Part shown: positions 4,630 to 56,720 of the stretch, in pieces | How the letters are laid out: every line of letters begins with the position of its first letter | Position numbering within the stretch: position 1 is the stretch's first letter | Assembly: GCF_003073375.1 (NCBI RefSeq) | Contig: NZ_CP029002.1 | Coordinates: forward strand, 730,001-794,000 | Source: Lysinibacillus sp. 2017 | GTDB lineage: Bacteria > Bacillota > Bacilli > Bacillales_A > Planococcaceae | DNA: 64,000 nt | Reading direction: 5' to 3' | Translations under genes and position numbers: made by a program | Notes under the pieces: generated by a model | Seen by the model: the letters and a program-made list of their open reading frames with translations, nothing else | Databases searched by the model: none | What the model was told of the DNA's origin: nothing

Positions 4630-6105
<1,476 letters not shown>

Positions 6106-7113: not shown

Positions 7114-8607
7114 TTGAAGGGATTGTCAGAGCTAGTCATCTTTTAATAGAGATGTTATGAAAGTGTATTGTGTATTGGCAGGCTGGGCGCCCAGAGTCGC
7201 AAAGATATGTTGCACATATCTGTACGACTCTTCTTTGCGTCTTGCGCTAGGCCTGCCAAATCAAAGTGTAATCCATTATGCCTTTACAAGTATTCGGGGG
7301 CGGCGGCGCTGTTGACGAGCAAAGGCGCCGTTTACTTTTATAGCGAGTCCGTTGAATTTTGTGAGTTGAAGGGATTGTCAAAGCTAGTCATCTTCTAATA
7401 GAGATGTTATGAAAGTGTATTGGGTTTTGGCAGGCAACCGCATATCAGCAGCAGGGTCACGTGGTACGTGTCCCTACTACTGATACTGTTGCGGTATGCT
7501 AGGCCTGCCAAATCATAGGCTAATCCATTCTACTTTTGCATGTGTTCAGGGGCGGCGCTGTTGACGAGCAAAGGCGCCGTTTACTTTTAAAGCGAGTCCG
7601 TTGAATTTTATGGGTTGAAGGGATTGTCAGAGCTAGTCATCTTCTAATAGAGATGTAATTAAAGTGTATCGGGTTTTGGCAGGCTGGGCGCCCAGAGTCG
7701 CAAAGATATGTTGCACATATCTGTACGACTCTTCTTTGCGTCTTGTGCTAGGCCTGCCAAATCAAAGTGTAATCCATTATGCCTTTGCATGTATTCAGGA
7801 GCGGCGCTGTTGACGAGCAAAGGCGCCGTTTACTTTTAAAGCGAGTCCGTTGAATTTTGTGGGTTGAAGGGATTGTCAGAGCTAGTCATCTTCTAATAGA
7901 GATGTTATGAAAGTGTATTGGGTTTTGGCAGGCAACCGCATATCAGCAGCAGGGTCACGTGGTACGTGTCCCTACTACTGATACTGTTGCGGTATGCTAG
8001 GCCTGCCAAATCGAAGGCTAATCCATTCTACTTTTGCATGTATTCAGGGGCGGCGCTGTTGACGAGCAAAGGCGCCGTTTACTTTTAAAGCGAGTCCGTT
8101 GAATTTGGTAGGTTGAAGGGATTGTCAGAGCTAGTCATCTTCTAATAGAGATGTTATGAAAGTGTATTGGGTTTTGGCAGGCAACCGCATATCAGCAGCA
8201 GGGTCACGTGGTACGTGTCCCTACTACTGATACTGTTGCGGTATGCTAGGCCTGCCAAATCATAGGCTAATCCATTCTACTTTTGCATGTATTCAGGGGC
8301 GGCGCTGTTGACGAGCAAAGGCGCCGTTTACTTTTAAAGTGAGTCCGTCGAATTTTGTGAGTTGAAGGGATTGTCAGAGCTAGTCATCTTCTAATAGAGA
8401 TGCTTTGAAAGTGTATCGTTTTTTGGCAGGCGACCGCATATCAGCAGCAGGGTCACGTGGTACGTGTCCCTACTACTGATACTGTTGCGGTATGCTAGGC
8501 CAGCAAAATCATAGGCTAATCCATTCTACTTTTGCATGTATTCGGGGGCGGCGCTGTTGACGAGCAAAGGCGCCGTTTACTTTTATAGCGAGTCCGTTGA
8601 ATTAAGT
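7114..8607 (+). repeat. Repeat array A, six forward units of about 249 bp
   Basis: Six head-to-tail units begin at 7114, 7366, 7615, 7864, 8113 and 8362 (TTGAAGGGATTGTCAGAG). Each has a conserved leader of about 60 bases, then TTGGCAGGC, a nested-hairpin insert, GCCTGCCAA, about 45 conserved bases, and a second hairpin GGCGCTG...AAAGGCGCC. Two insert types alternate between identical flanks. Type I (units 1 and 3) contains AAGATATGTTGCACATATCT inside GAGTCG/CGACTC. Type II (units 2, 4, 5 and 6) contains CCGCATATCAG...CACGTGGTACGTG. In unit 6 the right arm is altered to GGCCAGCAA. No gene or CRISPR-like spacer is present. Confidence 0.9.
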
Positions 8608-8791
8608 GTGAAAGGGACTGTCACAGATTCTCTTTTTGTAAAGGGATGAATATATGGATAGATAAGGTTCAATAGTTGTCAAAGCCTTATATTCTATAAT
8701 GGCAGGATTGCCTTTTCTACTAAAACTCTACATAAATGAGTTCACAGTATTTAGATGATAAATAAATACATTGTGATTTTACCTATTTTAT
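8608..8791. other. Central spacer of array A
   Basis: This stretch separates forward from reverse units. It begins with a degenerate unit start (GTGAAAGGGACTGTCACAG). It is closely matched by 44594-44754 in array C, sharing TGTAAAGGGATGAATATATG, GTTCAATAGTTGTCAA and TGAGTTCACAGTATTTAGAT. No open frame or RNA gene is recognisable. Confidence 0.7.
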
Positions 8792-9890
8792 AAAAAGATT
8801 CGCCTAATAAAAAGACTGGCGCCTACCACTGTAAGCGCCAGCACGTGAATACAAGTAAAGGGAAAATGGATACACCTTGAATGGGCGGGCCTTACACACA
8901 GCACAAAGAACATTCGCAGAGACTCTTGCAAAGAGGCTTTGTGAATGTGTGCTGCGCCAGCCCAAACGAAACACCCGAATCACCCCTATAACAAAGGATG
9001 AATTCACTATGATAAACCCTACTGTATAAAAAGATTCACCCAATAAAAAGACTGGCGCCTACCACAGTAAGCGCCAGCACGAGAATGCAAGCAAAAGGAA
9101 AATGGATGCACCCTCTATTGGCAGGTCTTTTAAACTCCTTCTATATAGTCTATTAAATTGTGACTGTCGCTTCGCTTTCGTCACAAAGATAATGTCACAA
9201 CAAACGGATTGTGACATTATCTTGACTGTGCGGCTTGCGTGCGAAGAACCTGCCAAATGACTATGCTTGAATAACCACTTTAATAAAAGGCAGATCCACT
9301 TAAACTTTCTCTACTGTATAAAAGATTCGCCTAATAAAAAGACTGGCGCCTACCACTGTAAGCGCCAGCACGTGAATACAAGTAAAGGGAAAATGGATAC
9401 ACCTTGAATGGGCGGGCCTTACACACAGCACAAAGAACATTCGCAGAGACTCTTGCAAAGAGGCTTTGTGAATGTGTGCTGCGCCAGCCCAAACGAAACA
9501 CCCGAATCACCCCTATAACAAAGGATGAATTCACTATGATAAACCCTACTGTATAAAAAGATTCACCCAATAAAAAGACTGGCGCCTACCACAGTAAGCG
9601 CCAGCACGTGAATACAAGCAAAAGGAAAATGGATACACCAAGTATTGGCGGGTCTTTTAAACTCCTTCTATATAGTCTATTAAATTGTGACTGTCGCTTC
9701 GCTTTCGTCACAAAGATAATGTCACAACAAACGGATTGTGACATTATCTTGACTGTGCGGCTTGCGTGCGAAGAACCCGCCAAATGACTACACCTGAATA
9801 ACCTTTTCATTAGAAGACCGAAAGAGGCTTTGTGAATGTGTGCTGCGCCCGCCCAATTGGTACACCCGAATGACCACTTTATTTGAAGAA
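8792..9890 (-). repeat. Repeat array A, reverse units including a 527-bp tandem duplication
   Basis: Four complete inverted units (about 8792, 9026, 9319 and 9553) plus a partial fifth (about 9820-9890). Read on the minus strand they share the order and flanks of the forward units (GTGTATCCATT, TGTATTCACG, then TGGCGC...GGCGCCA). Units 1+2 and 3+4 form a 527-bp tandem duplication: features at 8804, 9059, 9120 and 9248 recur exactly 527 bases later. Inserts are of two kinds. One nests TTCGCAGAGACTCTTGCAAAGAG; see also the one with the perfect palindrome AAGATAATGTCACAA/TTGTGACATTATCTT. Confidence 0.88.
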
Positions 9891-9969
9891 TTAAACACTA
9901 TGCCTACAGCTCTCTTTGTTTATGTGTGAAAGTACCATTTTTCATAAATGATGAAAGGGCAATTGCCAC

Positions 9970-14052: not shown

Positions 14053-14376
14053 TCGTTAACCATGAATTTCTGGAGAATGGTGGCTATTTATGGTAGTGGA
14101 TATTTGATTTATGAAAGTTTTTGAAAAAATTTGGATGTATTATGAAGTGTTGTGTATCAATGGTTTTGAAGGTTTTTTTCGTTTATAAGAATGTTAAACC
14201 TTATTAAAACGCTTTCATTTCTATGGAAACGCTTACTATATGTCGAATTTGTGAAACAATGCTCGATTCGTTGCAACAATTATTATTCCGTGATAGAGTA
14301 ATAAACGTGAAATAAATCACATAACAAACATACACCCCTTTGTTTGAACGTGAACATTTCTCCCATCCCCTTTGTG
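14053..14376. other. Gene-free stretch after pepF with a cre-like site
   Basis: No convincing open frame is seen. TGGAAACGCTTACT (about 14223-14236) differs at one position from the CcpA cre consensus TGNAANCGNTNNCA, but no gene starts nearby. A weak promoter-like TTGCAA/TAGAGT pair (17-base spacer, near 14272-14300) precedes the strong hairpin at 14377, leaving room for a small RNA of about 100 bases. Confidence 0.3.
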
Positions 14377-14427
14377 AAAAAAGAGGCGTCCTATCTGATG
14401 AAGATAGGGGCGCCTCTTTTGTTTTTC
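14377..14427 (+). terminator. Strong orphan terminator hairpin
   Basis: AAAAGAGGCG and CCTATCT pair with AGATAGG and CGCCTCTTTT around a four-base loop, followed by GTTTTTC. No annotated gene ends at it, so it may close an unseen short transcript. Confidence 0.7.
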
Positions 14428-14429
14428 TA

Positions 14430-14535
14430 GGGATTTATCATAGCTAGTTATTTTTCTAATATAGAGTTCGTAAAATAAAAGTGAATGTGGATTTGGCAGG
14501 CTAGGCTTGCCAAATCAATATGTAACCCATTAAAC
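14430..14535 (+). repeat. Solo forward repeat unit without hairpin insert
   Basis: It resembles the start of the array A and C units (GGGATTTATCATAGCTAGT, then AAAGTGAATGTGG). The arms TTTGGCAGGC and GCTTGCCAAATC meet with only TAG between them, so the nested hairpin is missing. The downstream GTAACCCATTAAAC matches the post-stem flank. The second GGCGCC hairpin is not recognisable. Confidence 0.7.
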
Positions 14536-18389: not shown

Positions 18390-18943
18390 GTTGTAAATCC
18401 GTATAAATCTGGCGGCCCCATGCTTTATGTGTTTGTAGCTATTGTCGTTAACAGGTTTGCTAGTTTAAGCGAAGAAAAAGATGCCTTTTTCCAGCTCTAT
18501 TCACTGCCAAGCTGGCTTGAGAAAAAATGGTAACAGAGTTTGATGGGTGGGAAAGTCGTTATGATGAAATTGTCGCTACGAACGAATATAAGCAATGAAT
18601 TTTCTTAAGTAATTATAGAATGCATTCAGAGCTTTTTCGTACGAATATGAAAACACTGGCAGTTGAAGGGGTATTGCTTGTTGTTCTGTTGACAGCGTTC
18701 ATTACAAATTATGAGTTCGAACAGAGCACACAATTAGTCATATATCCAACTAAAAAGGGTCGAAAACTTTTATTAAATAAAGGTCTAGCGAGTTTACTAG
18801 CAAGCTTCATTGTGATAGCAATTTTATTTGGAGTGACATTATCGGCTTACTTTACCGTCTATGATTACTCGGCTGTTTGGCAAGCTTCGATTAGTAGCGG
18901 CTTCAATTGGGAATATCGGTTACATACGAGTAAGCGTAGCTAG
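18390..18943 (+). pseudogene. Decayed ABC-2-type transporter permease
   Basis: Pieces of one membrane protein lie in different frames. SGGPMLYVFVAIVV and LPSWLEKKW stop at 18531. VTEFDGWESRYDEIVATNEYK continues in another frame. After two stops a 100-residue piece (18620-18943) carries two hydrophobic segments and an ABC-2-permease-like stretch (TQLVIYPTKKGRKLLLNKG). The 3' end runs into a repeat unit at 18950. No partner ATPase is seen, so the transporter is not functional here. Confidence 0.65.
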
Positions 18944-18949
18944 ATAGAC

Positions 18950-19060
18950 TTTCTTTGTATTGACGGGCCTTCTACAGAGCACAGAGAATAGCCCCAGAGA
19001 TACGTGAAATATGTCTCTATGACTTTGTGCTTTGCCTGCCAAACAGATCCCACTTTAATC
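18950..19060 (-). repeat. Solo reverse repeat unit
   Basis: TTGACGGGCC...GCCTGCCAA flanks an insert with AGCACAGAG, AGATACGTGAAATATGTCT and CTTTGTGCTTT, the nested form seen in array B reverse units. One A-C mismatch and G-T pairs weaken the outer stem. It directly follows the decayed permease. Confidence 0.7.
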
Positions 19061-19197
19061 TCACTTTATTAGAAAAAGGGGGACACCACGACAATCCTAA
19101 AATCCCCATTAAAAAAGCCCCTTCATTCATGAAGGGACCAAAGTAATAGATTATATGATTACAACTGCGTATGATTGTGTTGCTTATGAAGCAGGAA

Positions 19198-30553: not shown

Positions 30554-30582
30554 TCATATGAGTCGTTTATATCGAGTAAGGG

Positions 30583-30614
30583 CGGTGCTTGCAATTGCGG
30601 GCACCGTTTTTTTA
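30583..30614 (+). terminator. spoVIF terminator
   Basis: CGGTGC pairs with GCACCG over a 12-base loop followed by seven T. Confidence 0.8.
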
Positions 30615-30634
30615 TTGAAGCGAATTGGTTAAAT

Positions 30635-32340
30635 AAAGGGATTGTCAGAGCGAGTCGTTTTCTACTATGGGGCTGTTGAAAGTGTATCGGGTTATGGCGT
30701 GCTAAGCGCATGAATCGCACAGCTTTGTTGCACAAATCTATACGACTCATCTGTGCGCTTTATACTAGGCACGCCAATCACAGCATAGTCCATTAAATGT
30801 CTTTTAAAAAGGTGAGGCGCTGTTGCAAGCAAAGGCGCCGTTCTTGTAATAAAGTGGATCCATTACATTTGATGGAGCAAAGGGGATAATCAGAGCGAGC
30901 CGTTTTTAATAAAGAGACTATGTAAGTGTATCCAGTTATGGCGTGCTAAGCGCATGAATCGCACAGCTTTGTTGCACAAATCTATACGACTCATCTGTGC
31001 GCTTTATGCTAGGCACGCCAATCACAGCATGGTCCATTAAATGTCTTTTAAAAAAGTAAGGCGCTGTTGCAAGCAAAGGCGCCGTTCTTGTAATAAAGTG
31101 GATCCATTACATTTGATGGAGCAAAGGGGATAATCAGAGCGAGCCGTTTTTAATAAAGAGACTATGTAAGTGTATCCAGTTATGGCGTGCTAAGCGCATG
31201 AATCGCACAGCTTTGTTGCACAAATCTATACGACTCATCTGTGCGCTTTATGCAAGGCACGCCAATCACAGCATAGTCCAATAAATGTCTTTTAAAAAAG
31301 TAAGGGCGCTATTGCAAGCAAAGGCGCCGTTCTTGTAATAAAGTGGATCCATTACATTTGATGGAGCAAAGGGGATAATCAGAGCGAGTCGCTTTTAATA
31401 AAGAGACTTTGAAAGTGTAACGATTATGGCGTGCTAAGCGCATGAATCGCACAGCTTTGTTGCACAAATCTATACGACTCATCTGTGCGCTTTATACTAG
31501 GCACGCCAATCACAGCAAAGTCCATTAAATGTCTTTTAAAAAAGTAAGGCGCTATTGCAAGCAAAGGCGCCATTCTTAGAATAAAGTGAATCCATTACAT
31601 TTGATGGAGCAAAGGAGATAATCAGAGCGAGCATTTTTAATAAAGAGACTTTGAAAGTGTAACGATTATGGCGTGCTAAGCGCATGAATCGCACAGCTTT
31701 GTTGCACAAATCTATACGACTCATCTGTGCGCTTTATGCAAGGTACGCCAATCACAGCAAAGTCCATTAAATGTCTTTTAAAAAAGTAAGGCGCTATTGC
31801 AAGCAAAGGCGCCGTTCTTGTAATAAAGTGGATCCATTACATTTGATAGAGCAAAGGGGATAATCAGAGCGAGTCGCTTTTAATAAAGAGCTATGTAAGT
31901 GTATCCAGTTATGGCGTGCTAAGCGCATGAATCGCACAGCTTTGTTGCACAAATCTATACGATTCATCTGTGCGCTTTATGCTAGGCACGCCAATCACAG
32001 CATAGTCCAATAAATGTCTTTTAAAAAAGTAAGGCGCTATTGCAAGCAAAGGCGCCATTTGTTTAATAAAGTGAATCCATTAGATTAGGTGGAGCAAAGG
32101 GAATAATCAGAGCGAGTCGTTTTTAATAAAGTGACTATGTAAGTGTATCCAGTTATGGCGTGCTAAGCGCATGAATCGCACAGCTTTGTTGCACAAATCT
32201 ATACGACTCATCTGTGCGCTTTATGCTAGGCACGCCAATCACAGCAAAGTCCATTAAATGTCTTTTAAAAAAGGTGAGGCGCTGTTGCAAGGAAAGGCGC
32301 CATTCTTGTAATAAAGTGGATCCATTACATTTGATGAGAA
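30635..32340 (+). repeat. Repeat array B, seven forward units of about 244 bp
   Basis: Outer left arms GGCGTGC start at 30696, 30940, 31184, 31428, 31670, 31913 and 32157, a spacing of 242-244. All units carry one insert type: TAAGCGCATGAATCGCACAG, then CTTTGTTGCACAAATCT, then ACGACTCATCTGTGCGC, closed by GCACGCC. The second hairpin is GGCGCTGTTGCAAGCAAAGG (then CGCC), whose TTGC and GCAA arms also pair. Near 31745 the right arm reads GTACGCC, which keeps a G-T pair. No spacer is unique to one unit. Confidence 0.9.
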
Positions 32341-32399
32341 AAAGAGATTATCACGGTTTTGCTTTTAATATAATAGAATGATTAAATCTATATAAAAAA
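32341..32399. other. Central spacer of array B
   Basis: About 60 A/T-rich bases between forward and reverse units, beginning with a degenerate unit start (GAAAAAGAGATTATCACGG). No gene. Confidence 0.5.
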
Positions 32400-33110
32400 C
32401 GAATTCTCCATATAAAAAAACCGGCGCCTTGAGTTAGCATAGCGCCTTAACGTATTTAAAAATATTTATAGAGATACACCTTGTATGGGCGGGCCTTACA
32501 CAAAGCACGAAGAAAAGTCGCATAGATACGTGCAACGGATCTAGGTGACTTTGTGCTTGCCCGCCCAACTGATACACCTGAATACTCTCTTTATTAGAAA
32601 AAGAAGCACTCTGACAGTAGCTTTACTAACCTTATATAAGGAATTCTCCATATAAAAAAACCGGCGCCTTGCGTTAGCATAGCGCCTTAACGTATTTAAA
32701 AATATTTATAGAGATACACCGTGTATGGGCGGGCCTTACACAAAGCACGAAGAAAAGTCGCATAGATACGTGCAACGGATCTAGGTGACTTTGTGCTTAG
32801 CCCGCCCAACTGATACACCTGAATACACTCTTTATTAGAAAAAGAAGTACTCTGACAGTAGCTTTACTAATCTTATATAAGGAATTCTCAATATAAAAAG
32901 ACCGGCGCCTTGCGTTAGCATAGCGCCTTAACGTATTTAAAAATATTTATAGAGATACACCTTGTATGGGCGGGCCTTACACAAAGCACGAAGAAAAGTC
33001 GCATAGATACGTGCAACGGATCTAGGTGGCTTTGTGCTTAGCCCGCTCAACTGATACACCTGAATACTCTCTTTATTAGAAAAAGAAGCACTCTGACAGT
33101 AGCTTTATTA
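32400..33110 (-). repeat. Repeat array B, three reverse units of about 240 bp
   Basis: Left arms GGGCGGGC occur at 32487, 32727 and 32968. Each unit, in plus orientation, starts with CCGGCGCC...TAGCGCC. Then come TATGGGCGGGCC, the insert (AAAGCACGAAG, AGATACGTGCAACGGATCT, GACTTTGTGCTT) and GCCCGCCC. In unit 3 the right arm reads GCCCGCTC, giving a G-T pair. The units point toward the forward units. Confidence 0.88.
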
Positions 33111-43606: not shown

Positions 43607-43643
43607 TTGTTCATGAAATTACCGGTTTTTCGATCTTCTAATT

Positions 43644-44593
43644 CGAGTCCGTTGAATTTTGTGAGTTGAAGGGATTGTCATAGCTAGTCATCTTTTAATA
43701 GAGAGGTTATGAAAGTGTATCGTGTATTGGCAGGCTTGGCCTGCCAAATCAAAGGCTAGCCCATTCTACTTTTGCATATATTCAGGTGCGGCGCTGTTGA
43801 CAAGCAAAGGCGCCGTTTACTTTTAAAGCGAGTCCGTTGAATTTTGTGGGTTAAAGGGATTGTCAGAGCTAGTCACCTTTTAATAGAGATGTTATGAAAG
43901 TGTATCGTGTATTGGCAGGCTGGGCGCCCAGAGTCGCAAAGATATGTTGCACATATCTGTACGACTCTTCTTTGCGCCTTGGGCTAGGCCTGCCAAATCA
44001 AAGTGTAATCCATTATGCCTTTGCATATATTCAGGGGCGGCGCTGTTGACAAGCAAAGGCGCCGTTTACTTTTAAAGCGAGTCCGTTGAATTTGGTAGAT
44101 CAAAAGGGATTGTCAAAGCTAGTTATTTTCTAATGAAGATGTTATGAAAGTGTATCGTATTTTGGCAGGCTGGGCGCCCAGAGTCGCAAAGATATGTTGC
44201 ACATATCTGTACGACTCTTCTTTGCGCCTTGGGCTAGGCCTGCCAAATCAAAGTGTAATCCATTATGCCTTTGCATATATTCAGGTGCGGCGCTGTTGAC
44301 AAGCAAAGGCGCCGTTTACTTTTAAAGCGAGTCCGTTGAATTTTGTGGGTTAAAGGGATTGTCAGAGCTAGTCATCTTCTAATAGAGAGGTTATGAAAGT
44401 GTATTGGGTTTTGGCAGGCTACCGCATATCAGCAGCAGGGTCACGTGGTACGTGTCCCTACTACTGATACTGTTGCGGTATGCTAGGCCTGCCAAATCAA
44501 AGTGTAATCCATTATGCTTTTGCATGTATTCAGGGGCGGCGCTGTTGACGAGCAAAGGCGCCGTTTTTCTATAAAGCGAGTCCGTTGAGTTAA
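43644..44593 (+). repeat. Repeat array C, four forward units including one empty unit
   Basis: Units start near 43666, 43851, 44101 and 44348. The first has TTGGCAGGCTTGGCCTGCCAA, that is, both outer arms with no nested hairpin; it is about 65 bases shorter. Units 2 and 3 hold the type I insert, here with GCGCCTTGGGCTAGGCC at the right, and unit 4 holds type II. Flanks match array A closely. All keep the second hairpin GGCGCTGTTGAC...AAAGGCGCC. Confidence 0.9.
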
Positions 44594-44754
44594 GTGTGAA
44601 AGGGACTGTCACAGATTCTCTTTTTGTAAAGGGATGAATATATGAATAGGGTTCAATAGTTGTCAATGCCTTCATATTCTATAATGGCTAGATAAATGAG
44701 TTCACAGTATTTAGATGTTTTAAATAAATACATTGTGATTTCCCCTACTTTATA
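44594..44754. other. Central spacer of array C
   Basis: Counterpart of 8608-8791 in array A, with the same order of short conserved blocks and a few deletions. No gene is seen. Confidence 0.65.
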
Positions 44755-45523
44755 AAAAGGGTTCACCCTATTAGAAGACTGGCGCCTACCACTGTAAGCG
44801 CCAGAACGTGAATATAAGTAAAAGGAAAATGGATACACCTTATATTGGCAGGTCTTTCACGAAGCACAAAGGCGAGTCGTACAGACATGTGCAACATGGC
44901 TGTGCGGCTTGCGTGCGAAGAACCTGCCAAATGACTATGCCTGAATAACCGCTTTAATAAAGGATGAATTCACTGTGATTTCCCTGATTTTATAAAAAGA
45001 TTCGCCTAATAAACCGACTGGCGCCTTGCCCGCATAGCGCCAACACGTGAATACAAGTAAAGGAAACTTGGATACAACAAGTATTGGCAGGTCTTTCAAC
45101 ACCTTTTATATAGTCTGTTAAATTGTGACTGTCGCTTCGCTTTCGTCACAAAGATAATGTCACAACAAACGGATTGTGACATTATCTTGACTGTGCGGCT
45201 TGCGTGCGAATAACCTGCCAAGTGATTATGCCCGAATAACCACTTTAATAAAAGGCAGATTCACTTGAACTGTATCCTTCTCTACTTTAGAAGGAAGATT
45301 CGATAAATTTAGAAGACTGGCGCCTACCACAGTAAGCGCCAGCACGTGAATACAAGTAAAGGGAAAATGGATACACCAAGTATTGGCAGGTCTTTCACGA
45401 AGCACAAAGGCGAGTCGTACAGACATGTGCAACATGGCTGTGCGGCTTGCGTGCGAAGAACCTGCCAAATGACTATGCCTGAATAACCGTTTTAATAAAA
45501 GGCTACAAATGTCAATTAATCTA
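44755..45523 (-). repeat. Repeat array C, three reverse units, interrupted by IS21
   Basis: Outer arms GGCAGGTC...ACCTGCC at about 44848-44930, 45088-45223 and 45385-45470. Units 1 and 3 carry the insert with CGAGTCGTACAGACATGTGC and AACATGGCTGTGCGG. Unit 2 carries the insert with AAGATAATGTCACAA/TTGTGACATTATCTT, as in array A. The flank resumes after the IS at about 47694 (AAAGGCGGATTCACTTGAAC), so IS21 landed at the edge of the array. Confidence 0.88.
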
Positions 45524-45556: not shown

Positions 45557-46315
45557 TTACTCACTTTCTGGAGCTAAATGGTTTTTCAAACGATAAGAAT
45601 TACCGATGATTGTTACAACCGTTGCGTGATGTAAAATGCGATCTAAAATCGCATTGGCTAACTTAGGCTCCTGAAACACTTCGTCCCAAGATTTAAAGTT
45701 AGCGTTTGTTGTAAAGATTGTGCTTCGTTTTTCATAACGCATATCGATTAACTGGAAGAAGAGTTTTGCATCCTCCGGATCAATGGGTAAATAACCAATT
45801 TCATCGATAATAAGTAACCTATATTTTGTGTAATGCTTCAAGCGGCTCTCTAGACGATTCTCTAGGCGAGCCCTTTTTAAGTTCTGAATCAAATCATGAC
45901 ATTTTATAAAATACGTACTTGTACGTTTTTTTGCAGCCGCAATCCCGATAGCGGAGGCTAAATGGGTCTTACCCACACCACTAGGGCCTAAAAATACGAT
46001 GTTTTCATTACTCTCAATAAAACGTAATGTAAGAAAATCATGAATCTGTTGCGGGTTGATTGACGGTTGGAAGTCGAAATCATAGTCCTTTATCTCTTTT
46101 AGATTTGGGAAGGCACCCACTTTTACCATCGCATGAATCATATTGTGTTCACGTAAATCAATTTCATAATTTGTTAATTTAATCAACGTATCGATAAATG
46201 ACATTTGATTGTGGATGCCGAAGTCCACGACTTCATCTAAATGTGTAACCATTTGTTTTAATTTTAAATACTCTAAGTTCTTCAAAAGTTGCTGATAATT
46301 TGTTTGCTGTATCAT
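45557..46315 (-). CDS. istB: IS21 helper ATPase IstB
   Basis: 252-residue AAA+ ATPase (DnaC-like) that selects the target and activates IstA. Walker A is GPSGVGKTHLASAIG, Walker B RLLIIDEIGYLPI, sensor ITTNANFKSWDEVF-like region (TIFTTNANFKSWDEV), ending DRILHHATVVTIIGNSYRLK. The ATG overlaps the istA stop (ATGA), as is usual for IS21. Confidence 0.94.
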   Translation of the reverse strand: MIQQTNYQQLLKNLEYLKLKQMVTHLDEVVDFGIHNQMSFIDTLIKLTNYEIDLREHNMIHAMVKVGAFPNLKEIKDYDFDFQPSINPQQIHDFLTLRFIESNENIVFLGPSGVGKTHLASAIGIAAAKKRTSTYFIKCHDLIQNLKRARLENRLESRLKHYTKYRLLIIDEIGYLPIDPEDAKLFFQLIDMRYEKRSTIFTTNANFKSWDEVFQEPKLANAILDRILHHATVVTIIGNSYRLKNHLAPESE

Positions 46316-47598
46316 GTGTCATACACCTCTCCAATAGCTTTTAGATTGTTTTTCGCTAAAGTATCAATGTCTGGATAACGAGGTGCAGAAATTTGCAAGG
46401 TTTCTTTATAATCTGAAGGACGAATATTTAATTTTCGATTCGATATAAGATGCTGTGCAATACACTCCATGTTATAATAAATCCATAATTGATCATCATG
46501 TATTTGTATCCCAACTTTTTGGCCAATGTACTTAGTGGGGACTGAATACTGGTTGGCTTTGTAGGAGACCATACTTGATGTGTTTACTTGTACAAGCTGA
46601 TGCTTGATACGGTAAGAGTTCCTTATCTTTTCTGCGGGTAGCGGAAGTAGGGAGCTCTTTTCTTTTTCTAAAGCAAATACGGGTATTTTGCCTGACCCTT
46701 GATGGAAAGATTGATTCAATCGATTCATTAACTTTTCAATGAAATGATAGAGCTCTTCTAAGGTCAATTGACCTTGATATGCATGGATTTCATCAATAAA
46801 TTTCATCTGTGTTTCTACTTTACCTTTTGTACGAGGACGCCGTGCTATACATGGTCGTACCTTAAAGTCAAAATCCTTCGCAAAAGCGGCGAACCTGCTA
46901 TTTATTTTTCCTGAACACTGTTCTGTTCGTGCCACATCCATAATTGTTTTTGGGTTATCAGTTACGATCTCTTTTGGAACACCCCCAATTTTTTCGAATG
47001 CTTCGGTTAAAAATGAGAACAAAACATCTTGTGTTTTACTCAATGTCAGAGTAAATATACGGAATCTTGAATACCCTAGAACCAGCGCACCTACGTTTAC
47101 CTCTACTTTTTCACCATCACTTGTCTCAAAAGGAATGCTTTCCTTCCAATCAAACTGTGCCTGTTGACCTGGTGGTGTTTCAAATCTTGTCGTACCTTTC
47201 GGTGAGGGAATACGCATTTGATCTGTAAAATAAGCTGCGAATTCGGGTGTCTTTGCGATATAGCGACGGAATGTAGAAGCACCACATTCTAAACCGTGAT
47301 TGTCTTTTAAATATTGCCAAAGTATACGGCGGTAATAAAACACCTGCTTTGAATCCTCCGACAGTAGTGCAGCGATTACCTCATAATAATCATCTAAAAT
47401 AGATGCCTTTTCTTTTGTTTCTTTTGGTGTAAATCCATTTAGGTACTTATCAACTGTACGTCGATCCACACCCATTTCTCTAGCCAACTGGCTTTTGTTA
47501 ATTTTCATTTTTAAATTCTCCATTAACTGTTTGAATTTTGGTAAGTCTGAAAGACTATTAATTTCAAAATTCGTTTGAACATCTAGCGTTATGTACAT
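46312..47598 (-). CDS. istA: IS21 transposase IstA
   Basis: 428-residue DDE transposase. An N-terminal helix-turn-helix (KSQLAREMGVDRRTVDKYL) precedes the RNase H-like core with Asp in QAQFDWKES, Asp in IVTDNPKTI and Glu in TKGKVETQMKF. A C-terminal beta-barrel (SSMVSYKANQYSVPTKY) follows. The ATG at 47598 follows GAGGTG; the open frame begins at a GTG nine bases upstream. It appears intact, so the element may be active. Confidence 0.93.
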   Translation of the reverse strand: MYITLDVQTNFEINSLSDLPKFKQLMENLKMKINKSQLAREMGVDRRTVDKYLNGFTPKETKEKASILDDYYEVIAALLSEDSKQVFYYRRILWQYLKDNHGLECGASTFRRYIAKTPEFAAYFTDQMRIPSPKGTTRFETPPGQQAQFDWKESIPFETSDGEKVEVNVGALVLGYSRFRIFTLTLSKTQDVLFSFLTEAFEKIGGVPKEIVTDNPKTIMDVARTEQCSGKINSRFAAFAKDFDFKVRPCIARRPRTKGKVETQMKFIDEIHAYQGQLTLEELYHFIEKLMNRLNQSFHQGSGKIPVFALEKEKSSLLPLPAEKIRNSYRIKHQLVQVNTSSMVSYKANQYSVPTKYIGQKVGIQIHDDQLWIYYNMECIAQHLISNRKLNIRPSDYKETLQISAPRYPDIDTLAKNNLKAIGEVYDT

Positions 47599-47767
47599 AC
47601 TAATCACCTCATGATTAGTATGCTAGAAAGTGAGGCAAAAGTGTACATCTTTAAGTGAGTGCGATTGTACATGAACATCGTAGCATTTGTAAAAGGCGGA
47701 TTCACTTGAACTGCATACGTTTGCAAATATCCAATGACGGGAATGCATACAAGAAACTGATATAATT

Positions 47768-56025: not shown

Positions 56026-56720
56026 TGGGGTTTGTCATAGCTAGGGCAGTGTATTTGGTTTGGCGGGCTAAGCGCATGAATCGCATAGCTTTGTTGCACA
56101 AATCTGTACGACTCATCTGTGCGCTTTATGCAAAGCCGCCAAATAAAGTGTAGTCTATTAAATTGTATTTAAAGAAGTAAGGCGCTGTTGCAAGCAAAGG
56201 CGCCATTTGTGAATAGAGCTTATCTGCTGAATACAATGGAAAAGGAGAGTATCATAGCTAATCTTATTTTAATAAAGTGTTATGAAAGTGTACGGGGTTT
56301 GGCGGGCTAAGCGCATGAATCGCACAGCTTTGTTGCACAAATCTGTACGACTCATCTGTGCGCTTTATGCAAAGCCCGCCAAATAAAGTGTAGTCTATTA
56401 AATTATATTTAAAGAAGTAAGGCGCTGTTGCAAGCAAAGGCGCCGTTCTTTTAAATAAAGCGGATTTGCTAAATAAGTAGACAAGGGAATTGTTATAGCT
56501 GTCATGTTTTAATTATAGAGTTAAGTATGTGTACGTGGTTTGGCGGGCTAAGCGCATGAATCGCACAGCTTTGTTGCACAAATCTGTACGACTCATCTGT
56601 GCGCTTTATGCAAGGCCCGCCAAATAAGGCATAGTCTATTAAATTATATTTAAAGAGGGAAGGCGCTGTTGCAAGCAAAGGCGCCGTTTGTTTAAATAAA
56701 GAGGATTTGCGGCAAGAAAA
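56026..56720 (+). repeat. Repeat array D, three forward units of about 240 bp
   Basis: Outer arms GGCGGGC at 56062, 56301 and 56542. The insert is the array B type (TAAGCGCATGAATCGCACAG, TTTGTTGCACAAATCT, ACGACTCATC) but the closing arms are GGCGGGC/GCCCGCC instead of GGCGTGC/GCACGCC. The first unit is truncated at its left and its right arm has lost one C (AGCCGCC). The second hairpin is GGCGCTGTTGC...AAAGGCGCC. No reverse units follow. Confidence 0.88.

Follow-up and report, generated by a model that had tools for sequence, protein, structure and literature searches.

Convergent arrays of an intergenic structured repeat family in Solibacillus and its relatives, with a tip hairpin predicted to adopt two alternative folds

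The BOX elements of Streptococcus pneumoniae are composites of the form boxA-(boxB)n-boxC which run in one direction (PMC3049150). The repeats described here resemble them, as far as layout alone is compared, in being dispersed intergenic composites with a variable number of tandem modules and stable predicted RNA folds (PMC3049150), but differ in the size of their units (~245 bp), in having two arrays which face each other around a spacer, and in a conserved two-state hairpin. In the Bacillus cereus group, the repeats bcr1-bcr18 are MITE-like and intergenic; about half of the copies are transcribed, within untranslated regions or in the gaps of operons, and some of the repeats have a conserved RNA structure (PMC3446304). 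By description, the present family likewise consists of MITE-like intergenic repeats in Bacillales, whereas the convergent tandem arrays and two-state folds found here are not reported for bcr1-bcr18 (PMC3446304).

REP/BIME sequences are similar in being intergenic palindromes in inverted arrangement; their palindromic unit measures 20-40 nt, however, and the units of ~240-250 bp found here are 6-10 times longer. Unlike REP/BIME with an associated RAYT, these units stand head to tail in each half of an array, and the genome is without a Y1 transposase. The solo copies of the family are like MITEs, with terminal inverted repeats of ~20-25 bp and 8-bp target duplications, but neither ends nor duplications could be detected for the arrays, and a search of this genome (G000) revealed no autonomous partner. 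Eukaryotic foldback elements are tandem repeat arrays of variable length, inverted about a centre. The arrays described here share this layout, and differ in that their halves are ~60-70% alike, their units are structured, their host is bacterial and no target duplications were seen.

The DNA analysed (the window, 64,000 nucleotides) comprises bases 730,001-794,000 of a Solibacillus genome of 3.74 Mb in one contig, which starts at dnaA, so that coordinate 1 lies near the origin. An earlier note, based on the letters of the window and their open reading frames, had recorded about 33 units in the arrays A, B, C and D and as solo copies at 14.4 and 18.95 kb, with forward units to the left and reverse units to the right of a central spacer in arrays A, B and C, all pointing inward. 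These units and their arrangement were re-found (Table 1); array D has forward units only. Genome-wide, ~29 array loci with the same composites as the window were identified, holding ~194 full or partial units. A profile HMM map of the genome stretches analysed gave 27 loci (82 F, 26 FB, 69 RA and 17 RB hits, of which 160 exceed 180 bp; 47 kb for the family in total), and a second query of the B type gave two more, at 316.8 and 615.9 kb. By profile HMM, each locus in the genome with both kinds of unit has the order forward, spacer, reverse, facing inward. The unit period is 241-252 bp for forward and 236-292 bp for reverse units.

Table 1. Repeat units and arrays of the window (positions counted from its first base)
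Feature	Position	Strand	Remarks
Array A	7122..9907	.	Six forward and ~4.5 reverse units around central spacer; in spx-mecA gap
Array A forward units	7122..8607	+	Starts 7122, 7374, 7623, 7872, 8121, 8370; tip types in order a b a b b b; profile HMM
Outer stem and ~67-nt tip hairpin (predicted two-state)	7925..8009	+	Fourth forward unit of array A, type b
Terminal GGCGC/GCGCC stem-loop	8052..8076	+	Invariant T.G pair
Central spacer C of array A	8605..8788	+	~180 bp; common to A-type composites, 16 hits
Array A reverse units	8795..9907	-	8795-9031, 9031-9322, 9322-9558, 9558-9818, 9821-9907 (partial); two with extra nested hairpin
Degenerate solo unit	14436..14530	+	Without tip insert; directly after RsaE/RoxS sRNA
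Solo reverse-type unit	18924..19098	-	
Array B	30567..33065	.	Seven full forward (B type) and three reverse units; downstream of spoVA gene, convergent with GNAT gene
Array B forward units	30678..32370	+	Profile HMM
Array B reverse units	32393..33065	-	Profile HMM
Array C	43635..45506	.	Four forward (first without tip insert) and three reverse units
Central spacer C of array C	44593-44750		
Array D	56048..56707	+	Three forward units; between prfC and DDE transposase gene

Other elements of the window were identified as well. The gene for the RsaE/RoxS sRNA (Rfam RF01820) and the degenerate tip-less unit that follows it occupy window positions 14307-14530, an IS21-type istB/istA pair (45557-47607) adjoins array C, and a T-box leader was located on the minus strand at 5884-6097.

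Each unit is composed of an outer stem of ~10 bp, a tip hairpin of ~65 nt, a spacer of ~45 nt and a GC stem-loop. Forward, reverse and genus-wide solo (S) units could be aligned as one family on a shared design (outer stem TTGGCRGGC/GCCYGCCAA, tip of 64-68 nt, spacer, GC stem-loop). Forward and reverse units have diverged within it and are roughly 60-70% alike; the arrays are therefore not perfect inverted repeats. The tip insert is missing from some units (14.49 kb, 43.73 kb), and an extra nested hairpin is present in some reverse units. Predicted folds of the units are 3.3-5.3 sd more stable than those of dinucleotide shuffles. All 25 of the sequences compared have a U.G pair in the terminal stem-loop, where a different pair of the stem flips from G-C to C-G. 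In many relatives across genera (L189-L206) the core of this stem-loop, GCTTACAGTGGTAGGC, is nearly fixed and its lower stem variable; motifs resembling TTCTAATA recur in the same set immediately before and after the units.

A coding reading was set aside as unlikely, since the tip inserts (64-68 nt) show single-base variation and the ATG upstream of them is not conserved. A CRISPR array was also rejected, since whole units of 240-250 bp repeat head to tail and not short repeats with unique spacers. No family of Rfam 15 scored above its gathering score (best array match E = 0.38, 21.6 bits against 50), and the statement of the earlier note that no named family fits thus holds against Rfam.

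On the inward strand, the tip hairpin is predicted to have two folds that exclude each other and differ little in energy, which is a new observation. Two competing registers were present in the tip of all 52 representatives; the type b tip listed in Table 1, for example, has folds of ~-47 and ~-44 kcal/mol with no inner pair in common. The presence of a second fold was assessed by penalising all inner pairs of the best fold, the null being sequences redrawn so as to keep only the first fold. For the inward strand of 16 representatives, the best alternative that shares no inner pair averaged 2.5 kcal/mol worse than the best fold, against 17.0 kcal/mol in the null. The corresponding gap was 3.6 versus 17.7 kcal/mol in 29 cross-species relatives which were found later and had not been used in discovery, and it lay below all 40 null draws in 28 of these 29 covariance-model relatives.

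Covariation was determined for both folds, and in both it exceeds that of shuffled alignments and of slid controls. Fold 1 has 158 double-change cells (53 when shuffled) and fold 2 has 90 (42 when shuffled). In the new relatives alone, fold 1 is 91% paired with 71 double changes against 19; fold 2 is weaker at fixed columns, being 65% paired against 62% when shuffled, with 18 double changes against 5.5. From inspection of the predicted folds, one word of the 3' arm appears to pair with either of two words of the 5' arm, a layout which in our own reading resembles a terminator/antiterminator pair. The pairing words differ between subfamilies, and the two-fold design is conserved while the words change.

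The two strands of the tip differ in their imperfect pairs, counted in sequences that are related and hence do not represent independent events. On the inward strand, the inner imperfect pairs of fold 1 comprise 36 A.C and 7 G.T, and those of fold 2 comprise 32 A.C and 69 G.T. From this bias, the two folds are in balance on the inward strand, and fold 1 is preferred on the outward strand. In 66 of 81 hairpins (sequences related here also) the inward strand has the smaller energy gap, and across the 81 the gap amounts to 8% of the minimum free energy with RNA parameters versus 24% with DNA parameters. The outward strand equals or exceeds the inward one in total stability, and an argument for plus-strand RNA from raw stability was consequently rejected. 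The informative asymmetry lies in which fold each strand favours; together with the invariant U.G pair, the predicted folds hint at an RNA made from the inward strand.

As proposed in the earlier note, a covariance model was built and searched, and the family was found in 26 of 250 genomes of the Planococcaceae. The carriers are 15 of 16 Solibacillus species and members of three other genera, mostly of one called g23 here; copy numbers from this search are lower bounds (best 12 candidates per genome). Neither a match in Rfam nor absence from relatives combined with a lack of covariation, the outcomes which the note had named as contrary to its view, was obtained. Convergent pairs or short convergent arrays occur also in G001, G006, G008, G012 and G103, and sister species have few copies or dispersed ones. 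Arrays on the scale of G000 were not found in 15 other Solibacillus genomes with the F and S DNA queries and the covariance model (best 12 candidates per genome).

One orthologous locus could be followed through five sister species; its neighbours are an S9 peptidase gene and a gene which we take to encode an acyl-CoA ligase. The reverse hairpin at this locus is 92-98% identical, the flanking fourfold sites 75-81%, and few copies were found that could serve as donors for gene conversion. Judged from this one locus in few species, the hairpin is probably under purifying selection. The forward tip is of one kind in two of the species and of another in three, having been exchanged within the outer stem, and the reverse units number one to three.

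Within G000 the order of tip types recurs between loci; those at 412 and 509 kb, for instance, both read a a a a b b [C] r ~ r. This indicates that composites were copied as blocks of the form [forward]n-spacer-[reverse]m. Array A was inserted directly after the conserved spx terminator; in ten other Solibacillus species inspected, spx and mecA are kept with a gap of 313-719 bp and no array. A different GC-rich, repeat-like insert occupies the spx-mecA gap of G010 (L135, 3365-4083). Only one of 24 two-sided arrays lies in a gap between genes which both point away from it. The proposal that array orientation follows the upstream gene failed, with 9 same-direction gene pairs for and 8 against. 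Promoter-like sites showed no excess (5 found, 5.8 expected). A terminator-like T tail is present in some reverse units only and missing from forward units and from many relatives. The distance from the origin is 0.27-0.95 Mb for all 29 array loci, a departure from a uniform spread with KS p = 3e-8 in a post hoc test; the right arm has 24 of them and the left arm 5. The 28 loci of the solo-MITE family are spread differently from the arrays (p = 5e-6). Local spreading on one arm could account for the origin-flanking bias.

Several of the solo S copies are MITEs of ~240-620 bp, with terminal inverted repeats of ~20-25 bp (GGTTCATCACCRTAACATGGGG at one end and GGCTCATCACCATAAGTTGGGGATGAC at the other) and 8-bp target duplications. 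The duplication is perfect in L025, L090, L093, L023 and L033 (read as 9 in L033) and not clear in L031, L089 and L091. Since these solo relatives are MITEs, the units are not independent of mobile DNA. In the arrays of the window no shared ends were seen, the longest flank match averaging 6.58 at matched and 6.68 at mismatched loci, and transposition of an array as a unit was rejected, the array ends being without target duplications. Mobilisation of the ISL3 type, to which the 8-bp duplications had pointed, was rejected on the finding of no PF01610 protein in G000; nor was any pair of MITE ends 1-2.5 kb apart found in this genome. The genomes G000, G015 and G002, all rich in copies, encode no Y1 (RAYT) transposase, and a search for phage or plasmid carriage gave no match.

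The explanation we prefer, at about even chances, is that these sequences represent an unnamed Planococcaceae family of structured intergenic repeats, a MITE-borne element which probably acts as RNA and has spread as composite blocks. The solo copies lie inside MITEs and the arrays have spread as [forward]n-spacer-[reverse]m blocks, with unit numbers probably altered by unequal recombination. The inward strand would most likely be transcribed as untranslated-region or intergenic RNA, with the element acting as RNA, and a switch of this RNA between its two folds may affect how neighbouring transcripts are processed or terminated and how stable they are. The copies of G000 are a lineage-specific expansion, much of it possibly neutral. 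A structured non-coding RNA array was one of three suggestions made in the earlier note and is the best supported of them, by the covariation, by the balance specific to the inward strand and by the signs of selection at one locus.

The main competitor, less likely than not, is selfish or neutral repeat DNA, in which MITE-derived hairpins multiply as DNA with no host function; recombination and gene conversion would produce tandem growth and homogenisation, and hairpins would be kept for the mobilising or recombination machinery. The MITE ends with 8-bp duplications are consistent with this, as are the swapping of tip modules between orthologues and the lineage-specific expansion, which relatives lack at the orthologous site. 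The single two-sided array among 24 in a promoter-promoter gap is also as expected if harmful sites are purged. What argues for the RNA-acting element instead is the hairpin that is more conserved than fourfold sites where few gene-conversion donors were found, and the two-state balance specific to one strand. That balance, poorer with DNA parameters, bears also on the second suggestion of the note, a hairpin substrate of single-strand DNA for a recombinase, here extended to transposases and taken in the manner of REP/RAYT or attC. Nested hairpins, strand-asymmetric folding and the exchange of tip modules at the outer stem would suit such a substrate, but the 8-bp duplications of the MITEs are of a double-strand type and the three copy-rich genomes are without a Y1 transposase; given the latter, the RAYT/Y1-type version is not supported, and the reading as a whole is very unlikely.

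The note had lastly suggested a chromosome-structuring element, here taken as sites which flank the origin and, with a nucleoid or anchoring protein bound to them, would organise the chromosome or act like a centromere. The suggestion draws on the post hoc positional bias of the 29 loci, from which the MITE copies differ in distribution; 24 of the 29 loci are on one arm, the 15 other Solibacillus genomes searched yielded no arrays of this scale, and copies in sister species are few or dispersed, which makes this extremely unlikely. Bidirectional transcription barriers or terminators between genes would agree with the T tails of reverse units and with the intergenic, inward-pointing arrays, yet forward units and many relatives have no such tails, array orientation is not tied to gene direction, and upstream genes, where inspected, have their own terminator before the array. 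This function is accordingly rated as quite unlikely. Returning to the RNA-acting element, it is tentatively suggested, with some doubt, that the family could be a new class of switchable RNA element, a repeat-borne hairpin in which selection keeps two equally stable folds on a single strand, with tip modules that can be exchanged provided that the two-state design is preserved, and with deployment between genes in convergent pairs and arrays.

Repeats between genes are generally regarded as passive hairpins, and this family appears to keep two rival folds on one strand, a preservation which appears to span large sequence change and several genera. If real, it would allow selection on RNA switching in repeats to be tested cleanly. 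One species with an origin-flanking expansion, next to sisters with few-copy loci, also amounts to a natural experiment, which bears on how MITEs give rise to satellite-like arrays in bacteria and on whether such arrays do anything.

Two further observations concern the solo MITEs. The right half of the copy in L025 (3100-3305) contains a second, unrelated GC-rich palindromic repeat, which has 38 matches in the genome and none in Rfam. In two other copies an IS3/IS150-like element is apparently located inside the hairpin tip, as if this were a preferred target (L023 at ~2926 and L033 at ~1824, corresponding to 2.959 and 2.347 Mb of G000).
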